A stretch of 59,655 bases of DNA from IMG/VR virus record IMGVR_UViG_3300011113_000105, positions 1 through 59,655 of that record; one strand, written 5' to 3'. The notes below the pieces were generated by a model that was not told where the DNA came from, did no database searches, and saw only the letters and a program-made list of their open reading frames with translations. Source of the DNA: a virus. Below are positions 2,704-44,139 of the stretch, one piece after another; position 1 is the first letter of the stretch; each line of letters starts with the position of its first letter. A program made the translations under genes and the position numbers.

Positions 2704-2896
2704 CGAGATGAAAGTAACGGTGCAAGCCAGGGGCCGATATGGCACTTGGTTTTATTACCCCGCGTGTGAGAAGGCCGAGCAGTTTCGGCAGATAGAAGGA
2801 GGCAAGACCCTGACCGCCCATGCTCTGAAGTGCATCAGACAGTTGGGCTACGAGATAGAGATCAATATAGAAGTTCCGACAACCCTGAATCGTTAA
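2696..2896 (+). CDS. small protein, 66 residues, unknown
   Basis: The start at 2696 (ATG) overlaps the end of the upstream gene by 8 bases. The protein appears to be a small alpha/beta fold with a strand-rich N-terminus (KVTVQARGRYGTWFYYP). No family is recognised. It lies inside the MoxR/VWA gene group, between the DUF3150-like gene and the ATPase. Confidence 0.65.
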   Translation: MNNEMKVTVQARGRYGTWFYYPACEKAEQFRQIEGGKTLTAHALKCIRQLGYEIEINIEVPTTLNR

Positions 2897-2913
2897 TCAC
2901 TGGAGAAACCAAA

Positions 2914-3984
2914 ATGGCTAAAGTCAATTTCCGCACCACCGTTTCCTTGGAAGAAGCCAAGAACATCATCCGTGTCACGGGTGACGTGGTGACCAACATC
3001 ATCATTTCCGAACCCGGTGTCGGCAAGTCCACGCTGCTCAAGATGCTGGAGGAGGAGATGGGCACGGATGAGTACGACTTCATCTACGTGGACTGCCCTG
3101 TGAAAGACATGATGGACATTGCCGCGTCCATCCCGAACCACACCACGAAGCAACTGGAGTATTACGTGTCGTCCCTGTTCAAGCTGGGCAATGGCAAGAA
3201 GAAGTGCATCATGCTCGACGAGTTCATGAAAGCACCGAAGCTGCTACAGGTAATTTTCACTCGGCTGATGCTTGAGCGTACGGTGGGCGACATCCCCCTG
3301 CCCGAAGGTTCGTACGTGTTCGCCACGTCGAATAACGCTTCCGATGGTGTCGGAGACGCAATGCTCGACCATGCGGGTAACCGTGTGTGCAAGCTCGACC
3401 TGCGCAAGTCCACCGCTGACGAGTGGAACATTTGGGCCACGAAGAACGGCGTGGCGCGTTCCATCCGTGCTTGGGCGGCGATGAACCCGAGAGCGTTCGC
3501 TAGCTATCTGGACGGCGATCAGGATGACAACCCATATATTTTCAACCCGGCAAAGGGCAAGCGTCAGTTCGTGTCTCCACGTTCCTTGGCTAAAGCGTCC
3601 GTGTTCGTGGATCGTAGGGATCAGTTGACCGAGAACGCGCTGACCGCTGCACTGGCTGGCACGATCGGTGAGGCTGCTGCCAAGTCACTCGCTGCGTTCA
3701 TCTCGCTGGAGTCCAAGCTCATCAAGACGAGCGATGTCATCAAGGCGCCGACGACCGTCCCGGTTCCCGATGATGTTTCTGTCCTGATCATGATGATGTT
3801 CGAGGCAGTGGACACGATAAAGGTTCAGGATGATCTGAGCAAGTATATGGAGTTCGTGAACCGCATCAAGGCAACCGAGGTCCAGTCCGTGTTCTTCGTG
3901 ATGATGCTGCGCACGAAGCCCAAGCTGGCCCGGTACAACATCGAGATTTCCAAGTGGGCCGTCGAGAACCACTACATCATGTGA
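2914..3984 (+). CDS. MoxR/CobS-type AAA+ ATPase
   Basis: The 356-residue ATPase has Walker A EPGVGKST at residues 33-40, Walker B CIMLDEF at 98-104, and a sensor-1 ATSN at 137-140. These fit the MoxR/CobS branch of AAA+ proteins, which remodel protein complexes or load metals together with a VWA-domain partner. The C-terminal third (about 240-356) is helical and probably forms the lid and a partner-binding part. GGAG lies 8 bases before the ATG at 2914. The VWA-metallopeptidase at 4219 is the likely partner. Confidence 0.88.
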   Translation: MAKVNFRTTVSLEEAKNIIRVTGDVVTNIIISEPGVGKSTLLKMLEEEMGTDEYDFIYVDCPVKDMMDIAASIPNHTTKQLEYYVSSLFKLGNGKKKCIMLDEFMKAPKLLQVIFTRLMLERTVGDIPLPEGSYVFATSNNASDGVGDAMLDHAGNRVCKLDLRKSTADEWNIWATKNGVARSIRAWAAMNPRAFASYLDGDQDDNPYIFNPAKGKRQFVSPRSLAKASVFVDRRDQLTENALTAALAGTIGEAAAKSLAAFISLESKLIKTSDVIKAPTTVPVPDDVSVLIMMMFEAVDTIKVQDDLSKYMEFVNRIKATEVQSVFFVMMLRTKPKLARYNIEISKWAVENHYIM

Positions 3985-3992
3985 GGTGAAAA

Positions 3993-4235
3993 ATGAACCC
4001 CAAACAACTTGAAAAGATAAACGAGCTCATCAAGCGTGTAGCGACAGTATTGAGAGAGGACATAGAGAGTGATGACGGGTGTATCGATCCGTTGGATCAC
4101 TTGACTGCACTCAGTCTCATGCTCTGCACATTCAGTATCGAAGCTGGGTTCAGCAGGGAACAATTCCTTGGCGGGATCACTAAAACCTACGACAGTGCAA
4201 TAAACAACCGGGGGCGTCATGCAACTAACGACTGA
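3993..4235 (+). CDS. small acidic helical protein
   Basis: The 80-residue protein is predicted mostly helical, with the N-terminal 30 residues amphipathic. No family is recognised. It lies between the MoxR ATPase and the VWA-metallopeptidase and overlaps the latter by 17 bases, which suggests coupled translation and a role in the same complex. Confidence 0.65.
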   Translation: MNPKQLEKINELIKRVATVLREDIESDDGCIDPLDHLTALSLMLCTFSIEAGFSREQFLGGITKTYDSAINNRGRHATND

Positions 4236-5457
4236 ACAACGCATCAAGAAGGCGCACGTTGCGCTGATGAAGCATCCCGAGACAGCCCTGTTCTCGGGTG
4301 TGCTCATGCTTGGCGAAACGTCCGTGGTGGACGAGGGGATCACTGCGTACACCGATGGACTCAACAAGAAGTACGGTCGCGCGTTCGTTGAGGCTATCTG
4401 TAAGAAAGACTCACAGTTGAACGCACTGGTGTTGCACGAGAACTTGCACATCGTGTTCCGTCACCTGCTGCACAACCGTGATCTGTTTGTCGAGAACCGT
4501 CAACGCGCGAACATGGCGGCTGACTATGTGGTCAATGATGTCATCACGCACATCAAGGACAAATCATTGGTCGAGCTTCCGGTAGGCGCACTTGTCGATG
4601 ACAAGTATCACAACATGAACATGCGCGAGGTGTACCGTCTGCTCAAGGACGAGTGCGACGATGGTGACGGCGACGGTGGGTCGCAGGAACCGAAGCGCAG
4701 CAAGCAAGGTAACGGTTCCGGTGGGTCTGAACCCCAAGATGGGGAAGGCGGTGGTTACAAGTTCGACGACCACGACATCGACGGCGCGTCGCATGGCGCA
4801 ACCGCAGAGGAGATCAAGGAGATCGACACCAAGATCGATCGTGCTTTGCGTGAAGGCGCGTTGTTGGCTGGACGACTTGGCGCAAATCTTCCTCGCTCGA
4901 TCACCGAGTTGTTGGAGCCCAAGATCGATTGGCGTGCTGAGTTGCGTGAGTTCGTGTCGTCCTCGACCAAGGGCAAGGACGAGTTCACGTGGCGCAAGTT
5001 CAACCGTAGGCTTGTACCCAACGACATCTATCTGCCAACCGTAGAGAACGAAACGATTGGTGAGATTGTCGTGGCCATCGATACGTCAGGCTCGATCGAC
5101 CAAGCGCAAATCAACGCATTCGCCTCGGAACTGGCTTCGATCTGCGAGGCTGTGGAACCGGAAGCGGTCCGCGTTTTGTGGTGGGACACGATGGTGCACG
5201 GTGAGCAGCGGTTCGCTGACAACTATCAGAACATCGGGGGAATGCTCAAGCCGCAGGGCGGGGGTGGCACTCGCGTGGGGTGTGTCTCTGATTACATCAA
5301 CAAGCACAAGGTCAACGCCGAATGCGTGTTGGTGTTCACCGACGGCTACGTGGAGAACGATGTGAAGTGGAGCGTCAGTGCACCCACTCTGTGGCTTGTC
5401 ACGCACAACAAGCGTTGGACGCCGCCATCGGGTCGGGTTGTAGCTTTTGAACAGTAA
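4219..5457 (+). CDS. metallopeptidase-VWA protein (DUF2201-like)
   Basis: The 412-residue protein has two parts. The N-terminal part has HENLH at residues 73-77, an HExxH zinc-protease signature in a helix typical of DUF2201-type putative metallopeptidases. A Gly/Asp/Ser-rich linker follows at about 145-185. The C-terminal part is a VWA-like domain with a MIDAS motif D288-T-S290-G-S292. The pairing with a MoxR ATPase at 2914 is the classic MoxR-VWA arrangement. Whether the peptidase is active or only a fold cannot be told from sequence. The start overlaps the preceding gene. Confidence 0.85.
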   Translation: MQLTTEQRIKKAHVALMKHPETALFSGVLMLGETSVVDEGITAYTDGLNKKYGRAFVEAICKKDSQLNALVLHENLHIVFRHLLHNRDLFVENRQRANMAADYVVNDVITHIKDKSLVELPVGALVDDKYHNMNMREVYRLLKDECDDGDGDGGSQEPKRSKQGNGSGGSEPQDGEGGGYKFDDHDIDGASHGATAEEIKEIDTKIDRALREGALLAGRLGANLPRSITELLEPKIDWRAELREFVSSSTKGKDEFTWRKFNRRLVPNDIYLPTVENETIGEIVVAIDTSGSIDQAQINAFASELASICEAVEPEAVRVLWWDTMVHGEQRFADNYQNIGGMLKPQGGGGTRVGCVSDYINKHKVNAECVLVFTDGYVENDVKWSVSAPTLWLVTHNKRWTPPSGRVVAFEQ

Positions 5458-32489: not shown

Positions 32490-33866
32490 TTATCGACTGA
32501 TCTCTTCCCAGTCCAACGATCCCAACACCTGATTCCCGTTTGTTGCCGCCGTGCAAGCAAGAGTCAGTTCATAGGCTGTGGCTGTAAATGGGTCACGCTC
32601 CAGTTGACTGGCAAACAGTGCTTCTTTAAGGATGTCAACACTGTTGGAGCCTTGATTGGAGCCTTGGAAGAAGCCTGTTGCCAGGATGCGCCCGGTGCCC
32701 ACGGTAAACGCCGTTCCGGTAATGTTGTACTCCACCGCCGAGTTCGTCCCGGCGCTTACCCAGGTGCCGCCCGTTGTAGTGCCAGACGCCACAACTTCCC
32801 ACTTGTAGTTGGCGTTGTTGGTGATGCCAAGGATGGAGATTGCGGTCAGGATGACGATGGCATCAAGCCGGGTGCTCTTCAGTCTGATCGAGACAATGGG
32901 GTAAAAAGTCCCGGCAGTGGTCAAAGTTGTCGGGGATGTGATCGTGTTACCGGCAGTCAACTGGGCACCACGCAACTCATAACCACCCTCGGAGATAACC
33001 GTGGAGCAGACCTGCTTGAGCGTGCTTGCACTGGCCGTGGCGGCAGTGTTGGTCATCTCGTACCGCAGGGGCAAAGACGCCGTGGTGATGTAGGTCGTGG
33101 TAACGAGGTTGGCGTGGTTGAAGTTGTGCGCCGGGACAAACACCCCGTCGATGATGAACCCCATCCGGCAAGTTCCCAAGCCCAACCACTCAATGTCCAT
33201 GTACAGAATCTGCGCCTTGGATGCGTCAAGCGTGATGCCTGACGGGCCGGTTCCGTTTAGAGGATCTTGGTTCCAATCTGCCTGAGCCACGCGGGTGTTT
33301 ACAACGCTACCCGTCACGCTGCTGCGCTCAACGAAGTACAGATCCGACCCCTCGCGCTCAAAGTAAAGACCGTTGGCCGCACCGTAATAGCCCACCCGCT
33401 GACGCAGATTGGCCTTTGCTGTTCCAAGCACAAAGGTGCTCATCACCAACAGGCTCTTGCCCGGTTGGTACGAAAACACCTTGATGGTTTCGCGGATGAT
33501 CTGGTCGCCGTTGGCAGTGCCCACAGTCAGGTTGACCAATCCCTCATTTGCATTGAATGTGGCGGCAGCAGTGCCGGTGATGCTGTTGGCCCACAGGTTG
33601 TTGTCGGCGTATCGGTGCGACGAATCAAACAGCGTCAGCGGATTACTGACCCGCATGCGCCCGAAGGCGTCTACATTGGTGCCGCCGATAGAGACTGGGA
33701 TTGGGGATTCTGTAGCCACAATGCGCCTCAGTATGGCGTCAAGCCGGTTGAAGTACAGACGCAGGACGTTGTTGAACTGCTCGTGATAGCGAGACTCATA
33801 GTCCCGTGGGGCCAGAGGCAGGTTGGGTGGCGCAGGGACAATTGCATCTTCAATAAGGAGCGCCAT
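32490..33866 (-). CDS. virion structural (tail or fibre) protein
   Basis: The 458-residue protein starts with an N-terminal helix that contains APRDYESRYHEQFNNVLRLYFNRLDA, a pattern seen at the start of phage tail or baseplate fibre proteins, and continues with long beta-rich, Thr/Asn/Ala-rich sequence. No enzyme motif is visible. It lies directly next to the neck or tail protein at 33,867, with the stop and start adjacent. It is likely a tail component. Confidence 0.72.
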   Translation of the reverse strand: MALLIEDAIVPAPPNLPLAPRDYESRYHEQFNNVLRLYFNRLDAILRRIVATESPIPVSIGGTNVDAFGRMRVSNPLTLFDSSHRYADNNLWANSITGTAAATFNANEGLVNLTVGTANGDQIIRETIKVFSYQPGKSLLVMSTFVLGTAKANLRQRVGYYGAANGLYFEREGSDLYFVERSSVTGSVVNTRVAQADWNQDPLNGTGPSGITLDASKAQILYMDIEWLGLGTCRMGFIIDGVFVPAHNFNHANLVTTTYITTASLPLRYEMTNTAATASASTLKQVCSTVISEGGYELRGAQLTAGNTITSPTTLTTAGTFYPIVSIRLKSTRLDAIVILTAISILGITNNANYKWEVVASGTTTGGTWVSAGTNSAVEYNITGTAFTVGTGRILATGFFQGSNQGSNSVDILKEALFASQLERDPFTATAYELTLACTAATNGNQVLGSLDWEEISR

Positions 33867-37325: not shown

Positions 37326-37556
37326 TTACTCCAGTATCACCACCGTGTCGGTGTCATCAAAGAACATCATCCGGCCATAGCAGGCGATGTTGTAGTCCTG
37401 CCCGTTGGCGTCCAGTTCAGTCCAAGACCGTACCTCAATCCGCACATGCTTGGCAAGGATTTCCCGCCCGTTCTCAAACACGCGCCAGACATGAAGCATG
37501 GAGCCACGACCCGGTTGTCCTCGTGACTTGTTGAACCGGATCGTGTACTTGTTCAC
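37326..37556 (-). CDS. small protein, 76 residues, unknown
   Basis: This beta-rich soluble protein starts with GTG at 37,556, overlapping the dioxygenase stop (GTGA). It contains RFNKSRGQPGRGS and an HVWRVFENGREILAKHV strand region. I recognise it as a recurring small phage protein without function. It sits between dioxygenase 1 and the lysis cassette. Confidence 0.68.
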   Translation of the reverse strand: MNKYTIRFNKSRGQPGRGSMLHVWRVFENGREILAKHVRIEVRSWTELDANGQDYNIACYGRMMFFDDTDTVVILE

Positions 37557-38143
37557 TTGTAGTTAATGAATTTGGCAATAGAGATTCTGTATGCGCCTTC
37601 TTGCCCCTTCACAGGATTTGCTCCGTGCATAGTGCATCCGTGAAACAAAACCAACCTGTTTGGTTTTGGCTCTATTACTACATCATGCTCTGAAAATATA
37701 AACTCTCCCCCGCCTATATTTCCAATACAGTCAAACCAAACTGCCGATAATATCGAAGCATCGCGGTGTTGGTCATAGTATCCGCCATCGCTATAGTAAT
37801 TAACCAATGTAGTGTCTTTTGACGAGCACCGCAGATGAAGAAACGAGGAGTCTGTAGGTACGATCTGTTCGGCAAAACCTTGGCTAAATACTTTACTGAA
37901 ACCATTTAGTATGTCGGATTTGCTTCTGTCGCTGCTATAAAGGTCATCTAAAAATACGCCATCGCCGTTTTTCTTAAACTCCTTGTTTTCGTATCTTGCG
38001 GCAGATGTAAACTCTGGCTTATTTGCAAAACGCTTTATATCAAGAAGTTCTTTTTGTATTTTTGCGTATTCTTCGGGCGTAAAAAAATTATCCGCAACGA
38101 CATATGTCAGCGAATTTTTTCTCAAGACCCGCAAGTCCATCAT
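37553..38143 (-). CDS. 2OG-Fe(II) dioxygenase 1
   Basis: The 196-residue enzyme has iron ligands H126 and D128 (QHRDAS) and a distal H173 (TMHGANPV), with R186 (AYRISI) for 2-oxoglutarate. The double-stranded beta-helix order fits the prolyl-4-hydroxylase type. Its DNA is clearly richer in A/T than its neighbours, so it may be a recent arrival. It lies three genes downstream of the glycine-rich adhesin in the same transcript. The substrate is unknown. Confidence 0.85.
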   Translation of the reverse strand: MMDLRVLRKNSLTYVVADNFFTPEEYAKIQKELLDIKRFANKPEFTSAARYENKEFKKNGDGVFLDDLYSSDRSKSDILNGFSKVFSQGFAEQIVPTDSSFLHLRCSSKDTTLVNYYSDGGYYDQHRDASILSAVWFDCIGNIGGGEFIFSEHDVVIEPKPNRLVLFHGCTMHGANPVKGQEGAYRISIAKFINYK

Positions 38144-38526
38144 TCTGGAACTTTAGGCCACTGGATTGCGTCAGGGAATCCGGGCTGAAGACGAATCTCT
38201 CGCAAAGCACGCCGATACTCAACCCATGCAGCCTTGATGCCTGAAGTCATGGGCACATCCGGCAGCATCGACCAGTCCGACTCGGCCAGCATTTTCTTGG
38301 CGCGATCCCAGGCGAGGTCGCCCGCAGACGATGTTGCGGGGCCAGAGGGCGCATCGCCCACCTCAACCCAACCCATGTCGTTGTAGGCTTCGCCCAACCA
38401 CGCCAGATCACCGATCTGATCGATGAAGCCGTGAAGGCCAAAGATCGGCCCCCAGTTTTCAGGCAGGGGTTGCGGCTCGTTTAGCGCGCTTCCGTCCGAC
38501 AGTTTTTTGAGTTGCCACAGTTTCAT
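38140..38526 (-). CDS. tail-assembly chaperone-like protein (Phage_tail_APC)
   Basis: The 128-residue protein carries the family pattern: an RAKKMLAESDWSMLPDVP middle and an AWVEYRRALREIRLQPGFP end, as in small tail fibre assembly chaperones. The start is at 38,526 with AAGGAG before it; a longer frame to 38,556 has none. It lies two genes downstream of the adhesin, which is the likely client. It overlaps the preceding gene by 68 bases. Confidence 0.82.
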   Translation of the reverse strand: MKLWQLKKLSDGSALNEPQPLPENWGPIFGLHGFIDQIGDLAWLGEAYNDMGWVEVGDAPSGPATSSAGDLAWDRAKKMLAESDWSMLPDVPMTSGIKAAWVEYRRALREIRLQPGFPDAIQWPKVPE

Positions 38527-38980
38527 TTTCCGGCTCCTTCTTTTGAGCACCACCATTCACATACACATACTCTTTTTGGGCAAGATTATGTGCAACTGTT
38601 GCTTCGGCTTGCGCCTGATCAAATCCTGATGCGCCAAGTTGCTGAAACACCGCCATGTCGTTTACAAACGGAACATGCCCATTAAGATGTTTCTTTTCTG
38701 CCTCACTGACGCGCCACTCGCGCCAACTTGCAAAATCTTGACGGGGTTTAAGCGCAATGTGGCATCCGACATTTGCTGCCAACTGATGGATTAGTTCGAC
38801 AACCTCCACGGGCTGCATAGGCGTCCACAAAACAGAACCGTCATTTCCGCGCATCATCAATTCGGTTGTTCCACCAAAACAAGTGCCAACCGTAACAGAC
38901 CGAGCGCGGTTAAGAGACGACTCAAAGTTCGCCTCGTCCTGTTTGCGCTGAATCTCTTGAAGTTTCTTCTCGTGTGTCAT
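38459..38980 (-). CDS. unknown protein, 173 residues, adhesin neighbour
   Basis: The protein is soluble with a charged helical N-terminus, and its last 30 residues are Lys/Thr/Ala-rich and flexible. A region near residues 35-65 has alternating strands. No family is recognised. The ATG at 38,980 is preferred; it overlaps the adhesin stop. The long 68-base overlap with the chaperone gene in another frame is unusual. Confidence 0.65.
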   Translation of the reverse strand: MTHEKKLQEIQRKQDEANFESSLNRARSVTVGTCFGGTTELMMRGNDGSVLWTPMQPVEVVELIHQLAANVGCHIALKPRQDFASWREWRVSEAEKKHLNGHVPFVNDMAVFQQLGASGFDQAQAEATVAHNLAQKEYVYVNGGAQKKEPENETVATQKTVGRKRAKRAATPA

Positions 38981-39999
38981 TGCGGATTCCAACTTATGAC
39001 AACCTGCCCACCGGGCGATCCTACAGAAATTGGATAACTTGCGCCGGGAGTAACCGCTCTACAGTTTGTGGTGCTTGGATTTGCAGCGGATCCGGCATTA
39101 CCTGAAGTGCCGGGGTTTCCAGCGTTGCCACGACCACCGCCACCGCCTCCAGGGCCGTAATAATTAAACGGAGAAGAACCGGCGCCACCGCCACTGCCTG
39201 CTCTGTTGGCGTTTGCCTTTCTGCCCGTCGGCCAAGAAGTAAAACACGGTGCCTGACCGCACCCAAAGCCTCCCCCACCGCCGCCGCCAGGAGTGCCACC
39301 AGCACCACCGGTATTTTGCGGGGGGGTATTGGGATAAGGGCAGTTTTTTGTGCTGCCATTATTACAAATTCCGGCACCTCCGCCGCCAAAACCAAGTTTC
39401 CAAGAGGCCAGGGGGCATGTCGTTTGGCTCGCCGTAGTGCCCGCACCTCCCCCATTTCCGCCAGCCCCCCCGGGCTGGGTGTTGTAGTTCTGGATAGAAC
39501 TTGGGCACGGGCAAGCAAGGTTGGTAGTGGAGTTGCCTCCGGCACTACCCGTCGTTCCTTTTGAGCCGCCACTACCCGCAGCAGCGCCATTTCCTGCCGC
39601 CCCTCCGGGGAATGTTAAGCAAAACCCAGTAGATGCGTTGCCCGCATTTCCGGGGTTACCTGCTGATCCGGGGTTGCCGTCAAGTCCCGATGGAGGAATA
39701 CCGCACTGTAAAAAGCCGCCAACTCCGACAGGCCCATTTCGAGTGCCGCCCTGACCATTGCACGGACAGTAAGGCGAAACAAAAAAACCAAAGCCTCCGC
39801 TGCCACCTCTACCACCTGATCCTGCGTTTCCGGCGTTACTGGAATTCCCCGGATTACCAGACCCGCCTTTACCAGTAACATTAATCCTGCTTACACCAAC
39901 AGGCACAGTAAATGTGCCGGGTGAATTAAAAGTTTGCGTGCCGCCGGGGACAATTGACTTGCCACCGAACAGCGCAACTTTAGGTGTTCCTGCTGGCAT
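38977..39999 (-). CDS. glycine-rich, Cys-rich collagen-like tail adhesin
   Basis: The 340-residue protein begins with a beta-type FNSPGTFTVPVGVSRINVTG segment, common at the start of phage Gly-rich fibre domains, and ends with a strand segment SVGSPGGQVVISW. Between them is Gly/Asn/Ala/Ser-rich sequence, with Gly runs up to seven. There are at least two five-triplet Gly-X-Y runs (GNPGSAGNPGNAGNA; GNAGNPGTSGNAGSA) with Pro in Y, and twelve Cys. This suggests a polyglycine-II or collagen-like fibre tip. It starts within the stop of a dioxygenase gene (TAATG) with AAGGAG before it. Confidence 0.8.
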   Translation of the reverse strand: MPAGTPKVALFGGKSIVPGGTQTFNSPGTFTVPVGVSRINVTGKGGSGNPGNSSNAGNAGSGGRGGSGGFGFFVSPYCPCNGQGGTRNGPVGVGGFLQCGIPPSGLDGNPGSAGNPGNAGNASTGFCLTFPGGAAGNGAAAGSGGSKGTTGSAGGNSTTNLACPCPSSIQNYNTQPGGAGGNGGGAGTTASQTTCPLASWKLGFGGGGAGICNNGSTKNCPYPNTPPQNTGGAGGTPGGGGGGGFGCGQAPCFTSWPTGRKANANRAGSGGGAGSSPFNYYGPGGGGGGRGNAGNPGTSGNAGSAANPSTTNCRAVTPGASYPISVGSPGGQVVISWNPQ

Positions 40000-40589
40000 T
40001 ATTGGCTCCTTGTACCTGAATCGTACCCATATGCAGGGCGTTTATCTTTGGCGTGGTCTGCATTAGGGCCGTTTTTGTCCACATAATGCAGCATGAACTG
40101 CACATTGAGTTGCCCGTCTTTAAGCGGCTGCCGCCAGTGCGTCACATCACAGCCCAGGTAGATCACAGCATCGCCAGGGTTCAGCACATGTTTTTCGGGG
40201 TCGTTTTGCCCATATTGTGTATAAACCGGGGAAAACTCACCTTTAGTGGCTACATTGATCGTGACACTGACTTCGCAGGCAGGTCGATCAACATGCTGTT
40301 TCAGTTTCTCTCCCGGCTGATAGATGCGAGAGTACGAATATGTCGGGATGAGTTCTCTGCCCGTAGCGTCTTCTACAGATTCCTTACTTGCCTCAAGCAA
40401 AACTTCGATTAAAGGATCGGCGTAATACGCATACCTAGAGGTCGGATCGCCTTCTTTAGCGGCTTCTTTCCACTCGCCCCTACGAATCTTGTTTTCAAAG
40501 TATCTTGAAACAACAGCAATAGTTTGTTCGTCAATAAAATTCCTGACGAGAACGCAGCCGTGTTTTTCAAAGTGTTCTGCATCAGTCAT
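39999..40589 (-). CDS. 2OG-Fe(II) dioxygenase 2
   Basis: The 196-residue enzyme has H99 and D101 (QHVDRPACEVS), then a NPGDAVIYLG segment and distal H151, with MLHYV following. This is a double-stranded beta-helix dioxygenase of the P4H-like kind. Its stop overlaps the ATG of the glycine-rich adhesin (TAATG), so the two are translated together. The tail beyond residue 170 is charged and flexible. Confidence 0.85.
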   Translation of the reverse strand: MTDAEHFEKHGCVLVRNFIDEQTIAVVSRYFENKIRRGEWKEAAKEGDPTSRYAYYADPLIEVLLEASKESVEDATGRELIPTYSYSRIYQPGEKLKQHVDRPACEVSVTINVATKGEFSPVYTQYGQNDPEKHVLNPGDAVIYLGCDVTHWRQPLKDGQLNVQFMLHYVDKNGPNADHAKDKRPAYGYDSGTRSQ

Positions 40590-41178
40590 AGTAAAACCAT
40601 CCTGTCACGATGTACTTTGATGTATTGCCAAGTACCGTATTCCCGCGATGCGTGTGCGTATACGCAGCAGGCCAAATAATCATGGTGTTGGCTTCAGGGC
40701 GCAAACGAAGGCGTTGATACAGAAACTCGGTTTCCCCACCGTCCTGTTCGCCAAGATCGTTTAGGTACAACATGTAAACAAGCACGCGCTCGGCATGTTC
40801 CTTATTACCTTGCTCGGCGTGCCATACATGGTATCCGCCGCCAGGATCAGTACGCTGCATCTTCATGGCCGTACCGTGTATTTTGGCGTCTTTCAATACC
40901 GAAAACTGTTCTGTGTATTGGTCATAACATTGTTGAAGACCATTAAAGAACACGCGAGTAGCGGGCGTATCGTTGAAATCAGCAGCGTTATGAGCGCCAA
41001 AGTTTAGGCCCAACTGCATGTCGTTTTTGCGGTGCTTAGGCGCACCTTCCCCGCGCTGGCGATTTACACCTGCGCCTGACTCAACAAGCCGCTCAAACTC
41101 GTTGATCAAGTGTTGGCAATAACCTTCCGGGTACACATCCCGATAGATGCCAATGAACTCTTTGTATTCGGTGTTCAT
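40582..41178 (-). CDS. 2OG-Fe(II) dioxygenase 3
   Basis: The 198-residue enzyme has GGGYHVWHAE with H120 and E122 as the likely H-x-E iron pair, LYLNDLGEQDGGETEF as the core strand and turn, and THTHRGN with distal H175 or H177. It fits prolyl-4-hydroxylase-like enzymes of the 2OG-FeII_Oxy_3 type. The start is at 41,178, overlapping the preceding stop (ATGA). A longer frame to 41,202 is less likely. It overlaps dioxygenase 2 by 8 bases. Confidence 0.86.
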   Translation of the reverse strand: MNTEYKEFIGIYRDVYPEGYCQHLINEFERLVESGAGVNRQRGEGAPKHRKNDMQLGLNFGAHNAADFNDTPATRVFFNGLQQCYDQYTEQFSVLKDAKIHGTAMKMQRTDPGGGYHVWHAEQGNKEHAERVLVYMLYLNDLGEQDGGETEFLYQRLRLRPEANTMIIWPAAYTHTHRGNTVLGNTSKYIVTGWFYYD

Positions 41179-41735
41179 TTGAAGGGCGGGCCTGAAACCC
41201 AAGCAACAAGGGATTGACGGCTACCGCTTGTCACGGGGGTTACTTGGTGGAGTACATACGAAGGGAATGCTGCCACCAGACCCCGCTGTTTGCGAACGGT
41301 TTGCGGCTGACCACCAGTAGTTACTTGGAGGTTTCCCCCCTCGTACTGGCTCGGGTCGGTCAGTTGAAGTACCAGACTGAGTTTCCGGCTTATGTTTATC
41401 CTGCCCCCATAATCCACATGCCATCCGTACATCCCCTGTTCTGATTGATCGTAGTTGGTCAACTGAATCGGCTCACCAAATCCAGTCAGGTCAAACCGGT
41501 AGTATTGGGCATTGAGAGATGAAGCAATATGCCCCAGTTTCTCAAAAACCCAAGCGGTGTCTTGCGTCTTGTTGAGCCAAGATAACTGAGAGCGCCTGAT
41601 TTTTTTAAGCGCCTCTTGTTCTACACCGCCCCCAACCTGCGCCTGTTGCTCGGCCTTCTGCGCCTGCTCTTGGAGCCAGTTCAGTTCCTGCTCCGTGAAG
41701 CCGCCTTCCCACCAAACAAACGGCTCAACAGGCAT
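41175..41735 (-). CDS. 2OG-Fe(II) dioxygenase 4 (PKHD-type)
   Basis: The 186-residue enzyme has GWHVDYG with H106 and D108, YEGGNLQV, distal H163 (VLHQVTPV) and R173 (SRQSLVAW), a clear PKHD/PiuC-like set. An N-terminal helix of about 50 residues is rich in Glu and Gln. The ATG at 41,735 is chosen because the upstream extension to 42,263 is out-of-frame reading of dioxygenase 5. AAGGAG is about 26 bases upstream, so translation is probably coupled. Confidence 0.88.
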   Translation of the reverse strand: MPVEPFVWWEGGFTEQELNWLQEQAQKAEQQAQVGGGVEQEALKKIRRSQLSWLNKTQDTAWVFEKLGHIASSLNAQYYRFDLTGFGEPIQLTNYDQSEQGMYGWHVDYGGRINISRKLSLVLQLTDPSQYEGGNLQVTTGGQPQTVRKQRGLVAAFPSYVLHQVTPVTSGSRQSLVAWVSGPPFK

Positions 41736-41746
41736 GGCATAAGGCG

Positions 41747-42340
41747 TCAGCAGGTGCTGCACGGGCGCTCCTTGTGTGACACGATGAAGTGAATGCACCG
41801 TGTTGGGGTGTCGGCATTGCTGCCGGTGAGTTGATGCTGCATCCACGAGTTTGCAAACATGACCGACCCCGGCACCATGTTGTTGAAGTGGATGTTGTTG
41901 GTGGCGTTGCTGACCTCTTCGCCCTGCACAAAGTCCAGTTCGATCATGGACTTGTTCATGCGGGTGTCGTGGTAGATAGGATATGCCCCACCTTGAGGCG
42001 TCTCCAAAAAGAACCAACCGCACATTTGGCTGTTCTTGTGGACATGCACATTCGTGCCGCCACCCCGGTTGACCTCCTGCGCCCACAGGCCGGAGAGGTA
42101 GAAGTCGTATCGGTCTACCGCGTAGCCTTGCCCCCGTAAAAGGTCTACGGCTGACAGAAGAATGTAGTTTGCCACTTCCTGCAAGGCAGGCTCGTGCCCA
42201 AGATGCGCGGACTGACACATCGGCCAATCGGGCTTGCGTACCTGATCCAAGTATTGGATGCATGTCGGCAGAACCTTCTCAGCCAAGTCGGGCCGCTCAT
42301 CTCGGTAGACGATTGCCGGGAAGTAGGCAAAGCCTTGCAT
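41747..42340 (-). CDS. 2OG-Fe(II) dioxygenase 5 (2OG-FeII_Oxy_5 type)
   Basis: The 197-residue enzyme has NVHVHKNSQMCGWFFL with H99/H101, a PGSVMFANSWMQHQL segment with distal H169, and R181 in TPTRCIHFIV. This fits the family that uses an H-x-H/N start instead of H-x-D. It is the first dioxygenase of the group in transcription order, just after the small coiled-coil gene, whose stop overlaps its start (TGATG). The other four are clearly different sequences, so simple recent duplication is not the origin. Confidence 0.82.
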   Translation of the reverse strand: MQGFAYFPAIVYRDERPDLAEKVLPTCIQYLDQVRKPDWPMCQSAHLGHEPALQEVANYILLSAVDLLRGQGYAVDRYDFYLSGLWAQEVNRGGGTNVHVHKNSQMCGWFFLETPQGGAYPIYHDTRMNKSMIELDFVQGEEVSNATNNIHFNNMVPGSVMFANSWMQHQLTGSNADTPTRCIHFIVSHKERPCSTC

Positions 42341-42573
42341 CAGGCGTCAATGTGGGCTTCAAGCGCAGCAGCAAAAGCGGCAATGTCAGCAGCAGTCACA
42401 TCACGAGCATCCACAGGCTTGCTGCGGGCATTCTCGATCAGGGTTTCCTTCGCCAGACGCACGGCTTCCAAACGGGCACGGCGCTTGTCCATAGCCAGTT
42501 CATGGGCGCGGCGACCTGCTTCTTGCGCTTCTTGCAGTTCAATCTGTGCTTGTTGTTCAGCGGTCAGGGCCAT
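42340..42573 (-). CDS. small coiled-coil protein, 77 residues
   Basis: This helical, Ala/Glu/Gln/Arg-rich protein follows the fibre gene by 15 bases and is coupled to dioxygenase 5. GGAG is 9 bases upstream of the ATG. No family is recognised; it could be a fibre-associated helper. Confidence 0.65.
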   Translation of the reverse strand: MALTAEQQAQIELQEAQEAGRRAHELAMDKRRARLEAVRLAKETLIENARSKPVDARDVTAADIAAFAAALEAHIDA

Positions 42574-42588
42574 TTTTCACTCCTTGAG

Positions 42589-44139
42589 TTAAGCCTTCAT
42601 ATCCTTCATGGCGATATTGCCGTACCAAGTCGTGCCGCCGTTGGGGGTGAAGAACACCCACACATCGACTGCGTTCGCCGTGGTGGTGCGAGACAGACTG
42701 GCTGCCCCGCCAGGGAAAACAAATGAACCGCCAGACCAAGCCACAGTTCTACCGGCAGTTCCATCGTTCGTCAAGATCAATGTAAACGAAGATGACCCCG
42801 TGGCGATGGGGTTGGACAGGGTGAATGTGCAGTTGCCGGTCAGCGTGGCCGTGAAGACATTCGCGTTCTGGAGGTTGATCGTGGTAGCCGTGCCAGTGTT
42901 ACCCAGAGCAGATACCGTGTCAGCGTAGGCAACAGGTTGCGTGAAGCCTGCTGCGGTGATGGTAGCGCGGGTAGTGCTGTTGGTTCTGAGCGTTACAACC
43001 CCTGATGCACCATCTGCATAAATTCGTGTTTCGCCCGAAGTTGCACCGTTGCCAAATCCCACAAGATCAGTGGTTGAAAGAATAAACGCAACTGCACCCG
43101 ATCCTTGCCGGAAATACCCAACAGCATTGCCAGTTGCCGATGGTGTTTCAACTTGCAATCGATAAGCAGGCGAACTCGTCCCAATGCCAAGACCTGTGGA
43201 GGTCAGGCGCATTTGTTCGGTGCCGGAAACCGTAGTGTTGTTTGCCGCTGTCATCCACGCATGGAAAGTGGCTGCCGTCTGAGAACTAGACCCTCCACCA
43301 TAAAAAACAGCGTTATCTGTAGATGTACTGTATGGGTACATCACCAAGAAATTGGGCTGCGCATTTGTGTAATGCCGGAGAAGAAATTTTCCTTCTTTGG
43401 TTGTTGCGTTTGTTTCGTTTGATGACAGACGAAATTGATTATCGGCACCACCAACAATATCCACCCGAGCGGCTACCGTAGTGGCCCCAACCCCCAAATT
43501 GTTTCCGTCAAAAGTCAGGTTGGCCGAGGAGCCAATTGCGCTTGTGGACGAAGCGTAGAAAACCCGGTTGGCTGTAAACGAAGTCAGGCCCGTACCGCCG
43601 TTGGTGGTAGCAAGCGTTCCCGCGAGGGTCACTGCGCCAGAGGTGGCAGAAGACGGGGTGAAGCCCGTGGTGCCTGCGCTGAATGTCGTCACGCCGTCAG
43701 CCGTGCTTGTGGCGATCTTGACGAAATCACTGCCGTTCCAAGCAACAACTGCACGCTCACCGGACTCAAGCGTCACACCCGTGGTCGGGCCTGCGCCGAC
43801 CAACTTAACCTGCTGAGAAGTCGAGGTGGCGTTGATGACGATGTAGGGCTTGCTTGCCGCAGGAGCCGTGATCGTCAACAGGCTTGCCGGGTTGCCGGTG
43901 CAGTTGATGATGCTGTACTGAGACGAGCCTGTGGCCCCGGAACCCGCCTGGGTCAAGGCTGATCCGGTTGTCTTGCTCAGGGTTACCGCAGTCTGGCTGC
44001 CGCTGATGGTCTGGGTTCCCGCTACAGCGCCGTCAAGGTAGTTGGTGATGTAGTCGTTGACCGTGTCGCCCCAGACGCCGGAGAGTTCTCCCGTGACCGG
44101 CAGGGCAAGACCCAAAAGGGAGGTGTATGAGGTGGGCAT
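42589..44139 (-). CDS. tail fibre protein
   Basis: The 516-residue, beta-rich, Thr/Ser/Ala/Gly-rich protein opens with TSLLGLALPVTGELSGVWGD, typical of aquatic phage fibres, and contains GLGIGTSSPAYRLQVET-type motifs that recur in fibre shafts. Its last 120 residues form a strand-rich head. It probably contributes to host binding along with the glycine-rich adhesin downstream. AGGAG lies before the ATG. Confidence 0.82.
   Translation of the reverse strand: MPTSYTSLLGLALPVTGELSGVWGDTVNDYITNYLDGAVAGTQTISGSQTAVTLSKTTGSALTQAGSGATGSSQYSIINCTGNPASLLTITAPAASKPYIVINATSTSQQVKLVGAGPTTGVTLESGERAVVAWNGSDFVKIATSTADGVTTFSAGTTGFTPSSATSGAVTLAGTLATTNGGTGLTSFTANRVFYASSTSAIGSSANLTFDGNNLGVGATTVAARVDIVGGADNQFRLSSNETNATTKEGKFLLRHYTNAQPNFLVMYPYSTSTDNAVFYGGGSSSQTAATFHAWMTAANNTTVSGTEQMRLTSTGLGIGTSSPAYRLQVETPSATGNAVGYFRQGSGAVAFILSTTDLVGFGNGATSGETRIYADGASGVVTLRTNSTTRATITAAGFTQPVAYADTVSALGNTGTATTINLQNANVFTATLTGNCTFTLSNPIATGSSSFTLILTNDGTAGRTVAWSGGSFVFPGGAASLSRTTTANAVDVWVFFTPNGGTTWYGNIAMKDMKA

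Follow-up and report, generated by a model that had tools for sequence, protein, structure and literature searches.

Collagen-type prolyl-4-hydroxylases (P4Hs), known from animals (C-P4H), from B. anthracis (3itq/5hv0) and from the virus PBCV-1 (5c5t), are sequence relatives of two enzymes, D2 and D3, encoded in the IMG/VR virus record IMGVR_UViG_3300011113_000105, which was analysed along its whole length of 59,655 bases (the window). Together with the gene of a glycine-rich tail-fibre adhesin, G, they form a cassette that also contains, in the window, three further dioxygenase genes, D1, D4 and D5. The target proposed here, X-Pro-Gly with Pro in the Y position of a Gly-X-Y triplet (Y-Pro), is shared with the collagen-type enzymes, whereas the candidate substrate is probably a glycine-rich phage fibre tip rather than a triple helix, several divergent enzymes are encoded per operon, and their activity is predicted. 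A study of phage collagens from 2012 stated that bacteria and viruses are devoid of the prolyl hydroxylases needed for Y-Pro and hence do not favour it (PMC3368898); in contrast, the large phage group described below does favour Y-Pro, with P4H-like enzymes encoded alongside.

Three viral systems can also be compared with this locus. Mimivirus modifies collagen with a lysyl hydroxylase/glycosyltransferase, according to PMC8968730 citing Luther 2011, and thus, like the virus studied here, encodes a Gly-X-Y protein plus its hydroxylase, or candidate hydroxylase in the present case; it differs in being a eukaryotic giant virus that hydroxylates Lys, and an enzyme of that kind was not seen in the window, though phages S-8S56, S-CAM9, S-PRM1 and CRP-6 have one. 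The fibre of cyanophage Pam3 is folded by a dedicated chaperone, as stated in an excerpt of PMC9608196; G, in its apparent glycine-rich tip, resembles Pam3 gp24/gp25 and the S16 gp38 adhesin, and a fibre-assembly chaperone is encoded downstream of G in the window, but the Y-Pro triplets distinguish G, and the excerpt describes no modification of the Pam3 fibre. Finally, clusters of 2-oxoglutarate (2OG)-Fe(II) oxygenase genes in HTVC023P-type pelagiphages have been read as auxiliary metabolic genes (AMGs) with "ferrochelatase" partners (PMC9599517). There, too, D1-, D2- and D4-like genes are lined up in the tail region next to glycine-rich tail proteins; the latter, however, have few GxPG motifs, and the "ferrochelatase" partner family, that of D4, folds in the model as a dioxygenase. 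The enzyme chemistry and the clusters are known, the clusters having been read as AMGs or DNA repair genes, and what is new is the proposed phage fibre setting for such chemistry. No report of hydroxylated phage fibres was found in the open-access papers searched, the search not extending to subscription papers and preprints.

Linkage of D2, D3 and G

The relatives of the cassette were fetched with D4 or G as the query, and 84 distinct contigs showing both the upstream fibre gene fib and the genes following G were counted as complete. All 84 contain D2, D3 and G, or a glycine-rich open reading frame (ORF) in the place of G; G comes directly after D3 or D4 in 83 of them. Since neither D2 nor D3 was a query, their constancy is not built into the survey. 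The other enzymes are optional, D4 being found in 67, D1 in 61 and D5 in two of the complete relatives, so the joint inheritance of enzymes and glycine-rich gene, which a sequence-only reading of this DNA had proposed to survey, holds for D2, D3 and G and not for D1, D4 and D5. The gene block, kept in more than 100 contigs, is more than a chance arrangement. An independent anchor, the virion protein encoded at 32490-33866, retrieved 19 loci showing fib, of which 18 lack both the D genes and G and one has both; three of the enzyme-free loci carry other glycine-rich fibres, without GNPG motifs. These observations support the inheritance of D2, D3 and G as one cassette. A search of 50,697 phage records for the N-terminus of G gave no match and hence no cultured representative. 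The Cys, Thr and Lys content of G differs slightly with the presence of D1 or D4, but these differences emerged among many tests and no interpretation is placed on them.

Association of Y-Pro Proteins with the Enzymes

An enzyme-blind survey was conducted by scanning IMG/VR with the DNA patterns of GNPGNPG, GNAGNAG and, as a control, collagen-like GPxGPxGPxG; all counts given here are samples, drawn from the matches listed. The Gly-X-Y ORFs were grouped into 155 clusters and classed by the position of Pro, and D-family genes within 5 kb were identified using hidden Markov models built from the relatives of the window. With Pro-fraction and distance cut-offs chosen after the first tables had been seen, a single set of which was applied to the final classes, an enzyme lay nearby in 49/63 Y-Pro clusters among the matches listed, as against 5/61 clusters of collagens with Pro in X (Fisher p = 4e-16) and 4/23 without Pro (p = 5e-7). 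For nine of the 14 listed Y-Pro clusters lacking a neighbouring enzyme, the full record contains a gene of the D2 family at some other place. Such a gene was found in 3 of the 47 X-Pro records listed, one of which (L376) is apparently the same phage as a Y-Pro contig (L373), to judge by their equal length and almost identical names.

At 50% identity the D2 genes beside the listed Y-Pro proteins form 10 clusters and therefore probably do not represent one recent family, and the Y-Pro proteins accompanied by the same enzyme families differ greatly in size and context. A further IMG/VR scan with a distant D2 revealed at least 10 loci. In eight close ones (89-100% identity) D2 trails a Y-Pro protein of 745-1603 aa by a few nucleotides, and in two distant ones D2 is not placed after a Y-Pro protein. 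Loci L244, L319, L334, L238 and L820-L826 encode glycine-rich proteins that are about 600-1600 aa long, contain about 19-65 Y-Pro triplets and have a D2 gene nearby, the distance being about 20 nt or less in all of them but L238, where it is about 1.9 kb. The 64.7-kb record L633 lacks a D2 and contains a frame of 2299 residues in which 373/614 triplets are G-x-P, the X place being taken by Thr, Ile or Leu.

A parallel case is provided by fibres with abundant Lys in the Y position. Collagen-like fibres of this type are encoded in Synechococcus phages S-8S56, S-CAM9 and S-PRM1, where they are followed by a small gene and then by the genes of a D3-like, a D2-like and a "hypothetical" protein. The last of these, profile-tested for S-8S56, combines procollagen-galactosyltransferase-like, PLOD-type glycosyltransferase (PF25342, 1.4e-47) and lysyl-hydroxylase-like domains and matches LH3 overall at 5e-35. 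A related LH3-like enzyme is encoded near a Y-Lys fibre in Roseobacter phage CRP-6 and in the IMG/VR contig L505. By analogy, fibre-linked dioxygenases would match the residue they meet, as these loci suggest. The LH3-like loci comprise L829 (OQ504984.1, record positions 171526-176353), L832, L833, L834 and L505, and the enzyme gene lies a few genes or fewer after that of the fibre; for other X-Pro collagens rich in Y-Lys (L479, L488, L511, L531) no LH3-like enzyme was found in the stretches covered.

Enzyme Families and Folds

The five dioxygenase ORFs of the sequence-only reading were recovered with their starts at 42,340, 41,735, 41,178, 40,589 and 38,143, and all of them fall in 2OG-Fe(II) oxygenase families of Pfam or PHROG. 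Legible iron and 2OG residues had been claimed for all five. The HX(D/E)...H triad is indeed conserved across the relatives in D2 (H106/D108/H163), D3 (H120/E122/H177), D4 (H99/D101/H151) and D5 (H126/D128/H173), as is the 2OG-binding basic residue after the second His in D2 (R173), D3 (K188) and D5 (R186). The exceptions are D1, with H99-x-H101...H169 instead of the textbook HxD, and D4, which has no canonical Arg/Lys at the usual place.

Among proteins of solved structure, the D1 profile matches 3bvc (1.6e-10). D2 is closest to PKHD hydroxylases, its profile matching 3dkq (2.7e-16), 5c5t (1.5e-9) and 3itq (3.4e-7) as well as PiuC, and the nearest solved relatives of D3 are bacterial and viral P4Hs (3itq/5hv0, 1.2e-9; 5c5t, 2e-8); taken together, the two profiles match the P4Hs 5c5t, 3itq and 5hv0 at 1.2e-9 to 3.5e-7. 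The PDB match of D5 is weak, and its superfamily assignment rests on PF13640 (1.5e-7). No hit between D4 and D2/D3 was obtained with hhalign, and the question was resolved by structure instead. The AF2 model of D4 (predicted local distance difference test, pLDDT, 92) has a clear dioxygenase fold, in line with the structure prediction proposed in the sequence-only reading; its best Foldseek match is the P. putida P4H that binds EF-Tu (9.7e-10), followed by PHD2 among others. Because the model matches the P. putida enzyme, PHD2 and other 2OG enzymes at VIA Z scores of 16-18, D4 is, as modelled, a dioxygenase; the ferrochelatase fold suggested by the PHROG label is not seen in the model, and the label of phrog_2954 is probably wrong. 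It is also worth mentioning that the first half of phrog_3531 matches D4 and its second half D2/D3, a sequence pattern that suggests natural fusions.

Composition and Structure of G

The composition of G was analysed in 73 full-length proteins, the ends of which are conserved and the middle variable across relatives. The core consists of 37% Gly, 10% Asn, 8% Pro and 0.8% Lys. In GxyG triplets Pro occupies X 37 times and Y 497 times, and Asn X 769 times and Y 58 times; the cores contain 488 Y-position Pro residues versus 182 in shuffled cores, and GxPG is present in every G. Both Gly-X-Y runs from which a collagen-like nature had been deduced are present in the window's G, with Pro strongly favoured in Y, but in the structural sense the description was not supported. 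There is no match to PF01391 (Collagen) at E<=1, and the model of G (pLDDT 83.8) points to a fibre tip rich in glycine. Its ends are beta-structured, and the core between them, modelled for the most part with confidence, is nearly devoid of helices and strands. The best structural match of the model is the Pam3 fibre (7ypx; 84 residues, root-mean-square deviation 2.2), with a Z score of 7.1 that is below the caution line of 8, and the resemblance is suggestive only; the glycine-rich domains of ALK/LTK rank lower, and Foldseek alone gave no significant hit with the G model. A collagen triple helix was rejected for G in view of the short runs, the missing PF01391 match and best structural matches to glycine-rich domains.

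Gene Layout and Genomic Context

The features of the cassette are collected in Table 1. Four dioxygenase genes had been described as consecutive, each stop overlapping the next start and the last gene ending inside the ATG of G. The overlaps are present at D2/D3 (ATGA), D3/D4 (8 nt) and D4/G (TAATG, as described), and D1 and D2 are separated by 11 nt. The tail-assembly chaperone said to follow G was likewise recovered, as the second gene after it, with c1 between. In the cassette region promoter hits are at the level of shuffled sequence and terminator-like hits number 17 versus 9.5 expected; megablast of this region against phage records and an Rfam scan of the window yielded no match.

Table 1. 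Genes of the dioxygenase-adhesin cassette and its surroundings in the window.
Gene	Coordinates	Strand	Product and matches
fib	42589..44139	-	tail fibre protein upstream of cassette; phrog_7760 tail fiber, 2.8e-6; position kept in relatives
u0	42340..42573	-	small gene between fib and D1; position kept in relatives
D1	41747..42340	-	2OG-Fe(II) oxygenase, PF13759 type, H-x-H...H motif; Pfam 1.9e-9; optional
D2	41175..41735	-	PF13640 dioxygenase, 1.2e-13; related to PKHD-type and prolyl-4-hydroxylases
D3	40582..41178	-	PF13640 dioxygenase, 5e-13; HxE...H...K
D4	39999..40589	-	modelled dioxygenase of phrog_2954, 1e-48 (family annotated "ferrochelatase"); PF13532 only 0.018; optional
G	38977..39999	-	tail-fibre adhesin rich in Gly, candidate substrate; triplets with Asn in X and Pro or Ala in Y
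c1	38459..38977	-	no Pfam/PHROG match; between G and chaperone in nearly all relatives
c2	38140..38556	-	tail-fibre assembly chaperone (Phage_tail_APC); PF16778, 5.7e-16; phrog_4912 tail fiber assembly
D5	37553..38143	-	PF13640 dioxygenase, 1.5e-7; rare in relatives

Other products of the window, a virus of aquatic bacteria, include a portal, DNA polymerase, helicase, primase and internal virion proteins. The terminase shares 53% identity with that of phage DSL-LC04 and 48% with that of Pelagibacter phage HTVC027P. At 4219-5457 (+), adjoining an ATPase gene (2830-3984), a putative metallopeptidase plus VWA-like protein (DUF2201) is encoded.

Proposed Mechanism and Alternatives

The cassette can be considered a putative unit for the modification of virion proteins. 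D2 and D3, with D1, D4 and D5 as optional extras, would be made late in infection together with G and the chaperone. With Fe(II), 2-oxoglutarate and O2 they would hydroxylate side chains of G while its chain is still unfolded, and the chaperone would then fold G into the glycine-rich fibre tip. We regard G as the probable substrate of D2/D3, modified before folding. The residue concerned is most likely the Y-position Pro, a choice held less firmly than that of G itself; the target of D2, and possibly of D3, would be Pro in Y of G-N-P-G, with Asn in X as the second candidate. Lys, which had also been named as a substrate, is unlikely at its low share of the core. The hydroxyl groups may make the extended glycine-rich strands stiffer or change the surface that binds the receptor. 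The wider proposition, that phages possess a dedicated set of several enzymes hydroxylating the repeats of their own adhesins, with the residue matched to the enzyme (Y-Pro to D2-D3, Y-Lys to LH3-like), stands at about even chances.

Several observations weigh against these proposals. Viral Y-Pro proteins selected by GTPGTPG (L633, L637, L644, L578) and cellular GNPGNPG proteins mostly lack a D2, and the link is thus with phage glycine-rich proteins of the Asn-X/Pro-Y type, not with Y-Pro generally. No (GxP)3G was found in 13 records of cultured or single-cell phages, most of them chosen for a D2-like gene, and S-H38 carries D2 far from any glycine-rich gene. Given D2-like genes without Y-Pro proteins, D2 relatives may have several substrates; in pelagiphages HTVC023P, HTVC033P and HTVC008M, rows of D1/D2/D4-like genes stand beside glycine-rich proteins with few GxPG motifs. 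Among the relatives of the window, the presence of D1 or D4 is not linked to the GxPG content of G, and the treatment of the five enzymes as one system in the sequence-only reading, given also that D1, D4 and D5 are optional, was too strong. The X-Pro and Y-Pro sets, which are uncontrolled for habitat, may moreover differ in habitat or oxygen, an effect against which the within-lineage anchor comparison is only a partial guard. As a separate observation, the myophage HTVC008M (L142, 3769-7048) has five consecutive genes of dioxygenase type, of which one carries the label ferrochelatase, near a glycine-rich protein, and a sixth small gene may be another dioxygenase.

The alternatives to G as the substrate are, in falling order, a role in the host, passenger genes, other fibres and DNA bases. 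The enzymes might hydroxylate EF-Tu, ribosomal or regulatory proteins of the host, or tune its 2-oxoglutarate/iron metabolism, and be placed in the late operon for expression only. The EF-Tu-binding enzyme matched best by D4, the match of D2 to PiuC, the treatment of such genes as AMGs in the literature and the D2-like gene away from fibres in S-H38 are in keeping with this, but the fixed place beside G, the absence in fibre-swapped relatives belonging to the same lineage and the contrast between Y-Pro and X-Pro are left unexplained, and we hold a host role to be unlikely. Slightly less credible still is that the enzymes merely travel with G, without acting on it, through a fibre region that is a recombination hot spot. 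Whole fibre modules are indeed swapped between relatives, and D1, D4 and D5 come and go; D2 and D3, on the other hand, are never lost where G is kept (84/84), and the same enzyme families accompany Y-Pro proteins that vary widely in size and context.

Modification of other virion proteins, fib or other fibres, instead of G is improbable: within the module fib and u0 equal G in conservation, yet relatives of fib, unlike G, also occur in enzyme-free loci. The hydroxylation of DNA bases, of the TET/JBP or AlkB-like kind, has very little in its favour. Some dioxygenases act on bases, and an older cyanophage review proposed DNA repair (PMC2984593), but the enzymes most closely matched by D2 and D3 hydroxylate proteins, the genes are placed in a tail operon, and no glycosyltransferase or nucleotide hypermodification gene was found in the scanned ORFs of the window, in agreement with the sequence-only reading, which saw no base-modifying partners nearby.

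Implications

If D2 and D3 do hydroxylate G, a class of post-translational modification of the virion for which no report was found in phages would be added to phage biology, and G would be finished much like collagen in human cells. Dioxygenases of aquatic phages filed as AMGs would then partly be virion-assembly enzymes, and the D4 family would lose its "ferrochelatase" label. Phages would also become a source of compact hydroxylases with which hydroxylated repeat proteins could be produced in bacteria.

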